Shown here: positions 6,030 to 7,827 of the stretch, one piece after another | How positions within the stretch are numbered: the first letter of the stretch is position 1 | How the letters are laid out: every line of letters begins with the position of its first letter | NCBI GenBank assembly: GCA_900318955.1 | Contig: ONMJ01000005.1 | Location: 46,269 to 110,268, forward strand | DNA: 64,000 nucleotides | Source of the DNA: an uncultured Bacteroidales bacterium | GTDB lineage: Bacteria > Bacteroidota > Bacteroidia > Bacteroidales > UBA932 | Reading direction: 5' to 3' | The notes under the pieces: model-generated | What the model was told of the DNA's origin: nothing | Database searches by the model: none | The model's input: only the letters and a program-made list of their open reading frames with translations | Translations under genes and position numbers: made by a program

Positions 6030-6062
6030 AAAAAAGCGGCACGCTGTAAGTCAACGTGCCGC
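6030..6062 (-). terminator. Attenuator terminator of the trpB leader
   Basis: On the minus strand, an 8-bp GC-rich stem GCGGCACG/CGTGCCGC (6055-6062 with 6036-6043) closes an 11-nt loop and is followed by six T residues (6035-6030), a textbook intrinsic terminator. It lies about 40 nt upstream of the trpB ATG, so termination here would prevent trpB transcription. Its loop and the base of its 3' arm are complementary to an upstream leader segment, which makes it a conditional terminator. Confidence 0.85.
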
Positions 6063-6108
6063 TTTTATATTGCATACGGTGATACGACTTACAGCTATAG
6101 ACTGCAAG
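6043..6108 (-). promoter_or_regulatory. Mutually exclusive leader hairpins (trp attenuation)
   Basis: Minus-strand segment 1, CTTGCAG (6102-6108), overlaps the end of the leader peptide and can pair with segment 2, CTGTAAG (6088-6094). Segment 2, extended to GCTGTAAGTC (6086-6095), is perfectly complementary over 10 nt to segment 3, GACTTACAGC (6043-6052), in the loop and 3' arm of the terminator. The 2:3 pairing encloses the 5' arm of the terminator, so it acts as an antiterminator. A ribosome stalled at the Trp codons would cover segment 1 and favour 2:3; one reaching the stop would cover segment 2 and allow termination. Confidence 0.8.
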
Positions 6109-6142
6109 CGCGCCACCAATTGTTGTTCAATACATTACGCAT
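6095..6142 (-). CDS. trpL: Trp leader peptide
   Basis: A 15-codon open frame, MRNVLNNNWWRACSL, ending in TAG, located between a promoter and the attenuator hairpin of trpB. Two consecutive TGG codons (6113-6118) sit just before pairing segment 1, exactly where a stalled ribosome would alter leader folding. Tryptophan is rare, so WW in a 15-codon frame at this position is unlikely by chance. It is too short for ordinary gene finding. No database comparison was possible; function as a regulatory leader is inferred from architecture. Confidence 0.82.
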   Translation of the reverse strand: MRNVLNNNWWRACSL

Positions 6143-6150
6143 ACTACTTG

Positions 6151-6181
6151 CAAATATTGAGATTAAAAATCATATATGCAA
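6151..6181 (-). promoter_or_regulatory. Promoter for trpL-trpB
   Basis: Minus strand: AATATTTG (6151-6158, seven of eight matches to TAnnTTTG) with TTG (6179-6181) 20 nt upstream. The leader-peptide ATG starts eight bases after the -7 box, so the leader transcript has almost no untranslated 5' end. Confidence 0.6.
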
Positions 6182-6285: not shown

Positions 6286-7026
6286 ATGGCGAATTTTCTC
6301 ACATCTTCTATCGGAAAGAAGTTCATCCAGAGCATAAGTGGAGCTTTCCTTATCCTCTTCCTTAGTCTTCACGGCGTAATTAACTTCTTCTCTGTCATCG
6401 ACACATTCAATGGCAAATACGGAGTTTCCGCCCTCGACGACAAACTCTTCTCTGCAGGCGACGGACTCTACAAGCTAGGGTGCGATTTCATGTCCACTCC
6501 TATCATCGACATCATGGTCCCCATCCTCGCCCTCGGCTTCCTTATCCATATCTGCTATGGTATTTACCTCTCTGTAGAGAACTACAAGAAGAGAGGCGGT
6601 GTCAAGAGATATGAGGTAGCCAGCAAGGCAAAGGCTGATTCCTGGTCTGCAAAGAACATGTTCGTTCTCGGTATCATTATTCTTGGACTTCTCGCCTTCC
6701 ATCTCTCCCATTTCTGGGCTAAGATGCAGCTTCAGGAGTTCATGGGTAAAGAAGCCATCAACAACCCCTATGCCCTCCTCAACCAGACCTTCGGCAACAT
6801 CTGGATGCTCATCTTCTACATTATCTGGTTTGTTGCTCTCTGGCTCCATCTGAACCACGGTTTCTGGAGTATGTTCCAGTCTATCGGTTGGAACAACAAG
6901 AACTGGCTCAAGAGGCTCAAAGTTATCAGCGTCATAGTAAGCTCTCTGATCGTTCTCCTCTTTGTAGCTTCTGCTATCAACGCCTATCTTCAGGCAAATT
7001 TCATCCACTCTCCTCTGACTCTTTAG
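6286..7026 (+). CDS. sdhC: Succinate dehydrogenase/fumarate reductase cytochrome b subunit
   Basis: A 246-residue membrane protein of the Bacteroidetes/epsilonproteobacterial cytochrome b558 family that anchors succinate:quinone oxidoreductase and binds two haems. Five hydrophobic helices are visible. Conserved histidines lie in SLHGVINF, FLIHICYGIY, AFHLSHFW and WLHLNHGFWS, consistent with bis-His haem ligation. The start context MANFLTSSIGKKFIQSISGAFL is typical of the family. Normally sdhA and sdhB follow at once; here a terminator hairpin and pyrH follow instead, so the catalytic subunits must be elsewhere or lost. Family call is firm. Confidence 0.92.
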   Translation: MANFLTSSIGKKFIQSISGAFLILFLSLHGVINFFSVIDTFNGKYGVSALDDKLFSAGDGLYKLGCDFMSTPIIDIMVPILALGFLIHICYGIYLSVENYKKRGGVKRYEVASKAKADSWSAKNMFVLGIIILGLLAFHLSHFWAKMQLQEFMGKEAINNPYALLNQTFGNIWMLIFYIIWFVALWLHLNHGFWSMFQSIGWNNKNWLKRLKVISVIVSSLIVLLFVASAINAYLQANFIHSPLTL

Positions 7027-7122: not shown

Positions 7123-7827
7123 ATGTATAAAAGAGTATTGCTGAAGCTCAGCGGAGAAAGTCTCGGCGGGCACGAAGGAAAAGGGCTCGATACGGCAAGC
7201 CTTGATGCTTATGCAACAGAGATAGCGACAGCGGCAAAGGCCGGCCTTCAGATTGCCATAGTCAACGGGGGAGGCAATATCTTCCGCGGACTCCAGGGAG
7301 TGGGGAAGGGCTTCGACCGCGTGGACGGTGACAAGATGGGAATGCTTGCAACTGTCATCAACTCTCTGGCCCTTTCTATGTTCATTAAGGATAAGGGCGT
7401 TGACGCCAAGGTGTTTACAGCAACCCCTATGCAGCCTATTGCCGAATACTACATGAGAGATAAGGCCGTAAAGGTTCTCGAAGAGGGCGGAGTCGCTCTT
7501 ATTTCCGGTGGTACCGGCAATCCTTTTTTCACCACCGACTCCGGAGCCGCCCTCCGCGCGCTTGAAATTGGAGCCGACGCTTTGCTGAAAGGCACGAGAG
7601 TTGATGGTGTCTACACCGCCGACCCTGAAAAGGACCCGAATGCGACCAGATATGACGCTCTCACCTTCGACGAAGCGATCTCGAAAAAGCTGAAGGTTAT
7701 GGACCAGACAGCTTTCGCTCTCTGCTCGGAAGGAAAGATGCCAATCATTGTCTTCGACATGAACTGTCCCGGCAACCTTACCAGGCTCCTCAAAGGGGAA
7801 AAAGTAGGGACACTTGTACACGTATAA
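7123..7827 (+). CDS. pyrH: Uridylate kinase (UMP kinase)
   Basis: A 234-residue amino-acid-kinase-fold enzyme phosphorylating UMP to UDP with ATP. The N-terminal KRVLLKLSGESLGG motif, the VNGGGNIFRG nucleotide loop, the SGGTGNPFFTTDSGAALRALE stretch and the KGTRVDGVYTADPEKD segment are diagnostic. Normal length, complete. It is followed after 20 nt by frr, the common bacterial arrangement, so both are probably co-transcribed from the promoter at about 7090. Confidence 0.97.
   Translation: MYKRVLLKLSGESLGGHEGKGLDTASLDAYATEIATAAKAGLQIAIVNGGGNIFRGLQGVGKGFDRVDGDKMGMLATVINSLALSMFIKDKGVDAKVFTATPMQPIAEYYMRDKAVKVLEEGGVALISGGTGNPFFTTDSGAALRALEIGADALLKGTRVDGVYTADPEKDPNATRYDALTFDEAISKKLKVMDQTAFALCSEGKMPIIVFDMNCPGNLTRLLKGEKVGTLVHV

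Follow-up and report, generated by a model that had tools for sequence, protein, structure and literature searches.

In the 64-kb stretch of DNA that was analysed (the window), the gene for a TrpB-like PLP enzyme, trpB2, was preceded on its own strand by a region (6181-6030) containing a Bacteroidota-type promoter, a 15-codon reading frame and three mutually exclusive RNA pairings, designated 1:2, 2:3 and 3:4 (Table 1). On the other side of this region lies sdhC (6286-7026), which is divergent from trpB2 and encodes a succinate dehydrogenase/fumarate reductase-type cytochrome b subunit (TIGR02046); it is followed by pyrH (7123-7827). Inspection by eye of the listed ORFs up to 14 kb gave no further gene for a succinate dehydrogenase subunit.

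Table 1. Features of the trpB2 leader region and the gene behind it in the window.
Feature	Position	Strand	Basis
Leader promoter, -33-like TTG box	6181-6179	minus	sequence; TTG spacing kept in relatives
-7-like box AATATTTG	6158-6151	minus	sequence; matches the consensus TAnnTTTG
Leader ORF MRNVLNNNWWRACSL, ATG to TAG, 15 codons	6142-6095	minus	sequence; WW leader conserved in relatives
Tandem Trp codons TGGTGG, proposed sensing site	6118-6113	minus	sequence
Strand 1 core CTTGCAG	6108-6102	minus	pairs with CTGTAAG (6094-6088), one G-U
Strand 2 core GCTGTAAGTC	6095-6086	minus	perfect pairing with GACTTACAGC
Strand 3 core GACTTACAGC	6052-6043	minus	terminator loop and upper 3' arm; antiterminator partner of strand 2
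Intrinsic terminator	6066-6032, T's to 6030	minus	sequence and fold
trpB2, TrpB-like PLP enzyme, 454 aa, solitary	5991-4627	minus	NF009057, TIGR01415

The initial annotation had described promoter-like boxes and a frame with tandem TGG codons in front of trpB2, with the leader ATG eight bases from the -7 box, as well as a seven-base 1:2 pairing and a perfect 10-nt 2:3 pairing; all of these were found in the sequence, the 1:2 pairing with one G-U. Its 8-bp terminator was an underestimate, because the stem has 15 bp, AAAAGCGGCACGTTG-ACTTA-CAGCGTGCCGCTTTT, with one G-U and the loop ACTTA. The two promoter boxes are 20 nt apart, and the -7-like box agrees with the consensus at seven of eight positions when the two N are counted. 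The short frame with its tandem Trp codons lies just upstream of trpB2, as in trpL-type systems; its stop codon abuts strand 2, and the terminator sits between the frame and the gene. Beyond its core, strand 2 extends in the 3' direction to about 6072, and this extension has two alternative partners, the Trp codons in the 1:2 state or the 5' arm of the terminator in the 2:3 state. The leader RNA of the window folded at -49.6 kcal/mol (z -5.28), and none of 200 shuffled sequences was as stable.

The trpL leader of E. coli encodes a short peptide with tandem Trp codons and forms 1:2, 2:3 and 3:4 pairings ahead of an intrinsic terminator, and its mechanism is a textbook one. The window element resembles it (RF00513) in these parts, its 1:2 hairpin being a predicted one, and differs in that it would control one solitary trpB2 instead of a whole tryptophan operon, that its strand 3 is largely the loop and upper 3' arm of the terminator, and that its leader AUG lies so close to the promoter box. 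We consider it likely, with a probability of about 0.83, that the lone trpB2 is tied to charged tRNA-Trp by a trpL-type attenuator, in which a translating ribosome governs transcription. In the proposed mechanism, transcription would start near the leader AUG and a ribosome would translate the 15-codon leader. With plentiful Trp-tRNA, the ribosome would arrive at the stop codon and cover strand 2, and the 3:4 terminator would form before trpB2. When Trp-tRNA is scarce, the ribosome would stall on the two UGG codons, covering strand 1; strand 2 would then pair with strand 3 (the terminator loop and part of each arm) while the terminator is still incomplete, and with this antiterminator formed RNA polymerase would continue into trpB2. 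If no ribosome is present, 1:2 would form and transcription would end. The enzyme itself would make Trp from indole and serine.

Masked partition-function folding was carried out on 85 distinct leaders from trpB2 loci, unselected for strand-2 complementarity, at an exposed RNA length that ended a few bases beyond the loop of the terminator, just before termination. In the window leader the terminator had a probability of 0.00 when the ribosome was placed on the Trp codons and of 0.95 when it was placed at the stop codon; over all 85 leaders the means were 0.09 and 0.90, respectively. In the folds, the antiterminator is exclusive with the terminator and favoured by a stall on the Trp codons, as in trpL. 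A switch in this sense (antiterminator on the Trp codons, terminator at the stop) was obtained with 71 of the 85 leaders versus 55 of 850 leaders with shuffled strand 2, and 14 of the 85 did not switch. When the full-length window leader was folded at equilibrium, the terminator won in every masked state (P 0.97-0.98), implying that the switch must be kinetic. Known attenuators also switch kinetically.

A terminator of the ordinary kind with a WW frame standing ahead of it by chance was weighed against this reading. Such frames do occur, since a genome search for the pattern promoter-ATG-TGGTGG gave 16 matches, six of them with a short WW frame; five of these six had no terminator behind them, and only the window element did. 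The 64-kb window had a single WW leader that was followed by both a terminator and an ORF of 120 aa or more. The combination of a WW frame of 8-35 codons with a terminator appeared in none of 745 dinucleotide-shuffled upstream regions, drawn from a set with some minus-strand loci in the wrong orientation. Chance was rejected on the shuffles, the window search and the genome pattern search, and the frame, the pairings and their position are moreover conserved across the clade, with covariation in the terminator and the antiterminator, which leaves this explanation hardly credible. A covariance model built on the leader alignment A1 (see below), applied to the whole genome at E <= 1, matched only at the window element, the second match being a chance-level antisense one of 18.3 bits at the same place; thus neither the model nor the pattern search found a second such element in the genome. 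No Rfam family reached its gathering score over the element. The Trp_leader family (RF00513) came to 26.7 bits (E 0.0016 in 301 bases), short of its gathering score of 41, and other near-misses (ncr1015, CssrB and others) were likewise under their gathering scores and were discarded.

The best 80 of at least 593 trpB2 loci were taken as the genome_contigs set, and 51 of the 79 with at least 150 nt upstream passed a first rule of WW leader plus terminator. Together with 70 loci of the genus and the window, this gave 151 upstream regions, 149 of usable length, and under a slightly wider rule the leader and terminator were present in 98 of the 149 (85 distinct); the window is counted twice among the 98, under its own name and as L081, and the genus loci overlap in part with the genome_contigs set. 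In doublet counts made while some minus-strand loci were still in the wrong orientation, WW occurred in 83 of the 149 regions and NN, the next commonest, in 49. One locus, L118 (G123), was excluded from the leader counts because its WW belongs to the C-terminus of SdhC (NWWHPELLQ), which is followed by a terminator before trpB2; this sdhC end looks as if it could act as a leader itself. The corresponding C-terminus is NWLHPEL in L001 and NWVHPEM in L002.

In a quickly built tree of 102 distinct TrpB2 rows, the leader was present in 77 (71/77 in the clade of the window), and its distribution took 11 changes versus 22.5 with shuffled labels. Five rows were labelled as having a leader by hand: L005, L031, L043 and L060 pass the wider rule, and L075 has a WW frame and no terminator under that rule. 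In the genus set, 43 of 69 usable upstream regions had the leader and 26 did not. The three rows nearest to the window, L001 (94% identity), L002 (92%) and L082 (93%), were leaderless, as were scattered other relatives, so attenuator control is dispensable, although the clade-wide conservation stands. The initial annotation had proposed, as a check, to compare related genomes for conserved WW codons and compensatory changes in the stems; the outcome was mostly in favour, and the nearest relatives count in part against it. These nearest rows could also mean that the attenuator worked in an ancestor and is now drifting in the lineage of the window as a relic, with trpB2 controlled otherwise. This is quite unlikely, given that all the parts are intact in the window, that the modelled switch is clear, and that the window terminator departs from the clade consensus sequence yet keeps its pairing. 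Among more distant trpB2 loci of the phylum, 4 of 29 had a WWW leader with a terminator (L170, L172, L177 and L178). These distant Bacteroidota leaders differ in sequence, possibly reflecting independent origins.

Pairing was analysed in alignment A1, which holds 53 of the 85 distinct leaders: 51 picked by their strand-2/strand-3 motifs, plus L021 and L100. The TGGTGG columns were invariant, all rows having come from a WW search, and the paired percentages lean high because of the way in which the rows were picked. In the terminator, 91.2% of the cells were paired, and 10 of the 12 pairs showed double changes (100 cells). The antiterminator core had 94.2% of its cells paired and double changes at 4 of 10 pairs; its 12 double-change cells compare with 2.3 in shuffles, none of 500 shuffles reaching as many. 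Other controls were weaker, since 20 of 500 shuffles equalled the number of double-change pairs and 186 of 500 the number of pair types. The 1:2 hairpin had 90.0% of its cells paired and four double-change cells, which 19 of 500 shuffles equalled, and its covariation score in A1 was no higher than that of shuffles. Covariation is thus strong in the terminator, modest in the antiterminator and small in the 1:2 hairpin. The double changes in terminator and antiterminator, together with the conservation of the leader, support the trpL-type attenuator that the initial annotation had proposed from a single sequence.

For its 3' side, the antiterminator draws on the loop of the terminator and the upper end of the 3' arm; in many leaders there is a second patch on the terminator 5' arm, formed through the sequence after strand 2, whose partner in the 1:2 state is the Trp-codon region. 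By eye, the leaders of L060, L061 and L063 have TCGTGAGAA-like strands that pair with TTCTCGCGA, TTCTCACGA or TTCTTGCGA, and in L026 GTCGCAA pairs with TTGCGAC. Other subclasses have different letters in the same places, so that the arrangement outlasts the sequence. The raw duplex of strand 2 with the terminator was less telling than the masked folds, being among the best five of 100 own shuffles in only 41 of the 85 leaders. Strand 2 bound its own terminator at -23.7 kcal/mol versus -19.7 kcal/mol for the terminators of other leaders, and the own terminator ranked at a median of 16 of 85.

The best TAnnTTTG-like box matched at five or more of six positions in 75 of the 85 leaders, 51 of which had it at a distance of 6-9 nt from the ATG. 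The match to the -7 box alone was dropped as evidence, as 739 of 1700 shuffles held an equally good box. The TTG spacings of 19 and 20 nt were looked for first, and then four neighbouring spacings. Of the 85 distinct leaders, 58 had a TTG upstream of the chosen -7 box at a spacing of 19 or 20 nt, two had it at 21-22 nt and none at 17-18 nt, and 25 lacked it; this paired spacing (58 versus 2 at the four neighbours) is the promoter evidence that counts. From the 8 nt between the -7 box and the ATG we infer a transcript start within a few nt of the leader AUG, so that the mRNA is probably near-leaderless. TAnnTTTG has been reported as the -7 box consensus, and only about 3.7% of the 5' UTRs of B. 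thetaiotaomicron are shorter than 10 nt (PMC7366714).

The solitary gene belongs to the TrpB2 type, as first annotated. The protein scored 697.3 bits with NF009057 (cut-off 366) and 600 bits with TIGR01415 (cut-off 518.85), whereas the canonical TrpB family TIGR00263 gave 154 bits, under its cut-off of 392.45. In the window genome (98.91% complete, 1.06% contamination), searches at E <= 0.001 did not find TrpA, TrpC, TrpE, a canonical or second TrpB, or tryptophanase. Over 35 genomes (the window genome and 34 of the 80 locus genomes, the completeness figure being that of the window genome), 28 lacked TrpA, TrpC and TrpE and the same seven had all three, while tryptophanase was found in four, including G008 and G010, whose trpB2 genes carry leaders. 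In the genus, TrpA was over its cut-off in 14 of 101 genomes. The window bacterium, of gut type, seems from the families searched (TrpA, canonical TrpB, TrpC and TrpE) to have lost the tryptophan pathway. A lone TrpB2 under Trp-codon control, with no pathway before it, fits the salvage of indole suggested in the initial annotation, and since the genome searches gave no route by which the cell could make indole, it probably takes indole up. Bifidobacteria are described as converting exogenous indole to Trp with TrpB responsible, and the same conversion is cited there for TrpB1 and TrpB2 of Thermococcus (PMC11085991).

Two other readings were weighed. In the first, the attenuator is real and TrpB2 catalyses some other beta-replacement or a deamination, Trp being merely the signal. 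TIGR01415 is indeed a hypothetical-equivalog family with a predicted function, but control by Trp codons argues for a Trp-making enzyme, relatives place the same device on the trp operon, and the nearest solved proteins (6hul_B, 4qys_B and 6hte_B) were deposited as tryptophan synthase beta chains; we regard this reading as unlikely. The second, suggested by the short leader with W's that precedes a gene related to Trp, is sensing of free tryptophan by the nascent peptide as in TnaC, the peptide arresting the ribosome when Trp is present rather than when charged tRNA is lacking. It is very improbable: the leader peptides of the different subclasses have little in common beyond their tandem W's, an intrinsic terminator and the alternative 2:3 pairing are present, and the controlled gene should make Trp, not degrade it, so that induction by Trp would run in the wrong direction.

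The A1 covariance model matched in 47 of 198 genomes of the order, that of the window included. All 29 best matches fetched besides the window had a WW leader and a terminator. The next gene was a canonical trpB in 12 of them, TrpE-like in 15, TrpD in one and TrpB2 in one; 10 of these 29 genes were put through family tests and the rest were assigned by their N-termini, the 12 canonical trpB also by their 28-32% identity to the window TrpB2. The seven TrpE-like proteins tested had trpE_most as their best match, yet under its curated cut-off. A Trp leader preceded canonical trpB in 13 of the 14 genomes of the genus that keep the operon and in all seven TrpA-positive genomes outside it. Operon leaders with WW or WWW and a terminator were seen widely in Bacteroidales before trpE-like genes, canonical trpB and trpD (L182-L209, L211-L223 and L226-L232). 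They share with the window element the strand 2 beside the stop codon and the terminator behind it, and differ in that most have WWW and that they would control genes of the full pathway. Taken together, the comparisons describe a predicted trpL-like attenuator that is widespread in Bacteroidales and would here control a lone TrpB2. Genome G031 has a leader both on its operon (L229) and on its trpB2 (L060); read by eye, the stretches after these two leaders are nearly identical, as if one had been copied from the other.

In the genus, trpB2 leaders were rarer in TrpA-positive genomes (2 with a leader, 10 without) than in TrpA-negative ones (41 with, 16 without; Fisher p 0.0006), that is, 2/12 versus 41/57, or 3/13 when L225 of the TrpA-positive G046, which stands outside the genus table, is added. 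A link between leader presence and loss of TrpA was dropped, because the tree gives four independent pairs, with which a sign test cannot reach significance, and so few comparisons do not show a causal connection. We tentatively entertain, at somewhat less than even odds, a movable Trp attenuator of Bacteroidales that sits on the trp operon where there is one and on the lone trpB2 where the operon is gone; a whole gut clade would then live on scavenged indole under charged-tRNA control through a near-leaderless leader peptide.

A candidate Trp attenuator has been proposed before trpB2A of Corynebacterium diphtheriae, likewise a gene named trpB2; unlike the window gene, it precedes trpA, and its host is an actinobacterium with trpB1EDGC as well (PMC1262725). 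In Chlamydia trachomatis, Trp codons (WWW in YtgCR) also sense shortage and raise trpBA expression from trpRBA; there, however, the WWW is within the precursor of a repressor whose transcription ends on starvation, and no leader peptide precedes trpB (PMC7755916). Searches of open-access papers gave no description of a Trp attenuator ahead of trpB2 in Bacteroidota. A FEMS survey of 2004 reportedly lists attenuators in Bacteroidetes/Chlorobi. The mechanism is thus known, its target and lineage are new, and the near-leaderless start is unusual. The element offers regulatory evidence, drawn from sequence alone, that solitary TrpB2 enzymes of uncultured gut Bacteroidales may make Trp in the cell, and the attenuator would predict which species may depend on the indole of their neighbours. 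The leaders also form a large natural collection of predicted Trp attenuators from a phylum with promoters unlike those of E. coli, and the closeness of start codon and promoter means that translation of the leader may need no 5' UTR.

At several leaderless loci (L001, L002, L003/L084, L025/L102, L120, L123 and L124, and likewise L127, L128, L136 and L138), trpB2 follows directly behind a co-directional sdhC, the end of SdhC having been recognised by eye. About 25-90 nt ahead of trpB2, these loci carry a strong terminator, which leaves hardly any space for a promoter. In seven genomes (G075, G056, G109, G041, G087, G055 and G128), the TrpB2 matches ended at query residues 433-439 and one internal stop was listed, suggesting shorter C-termini.
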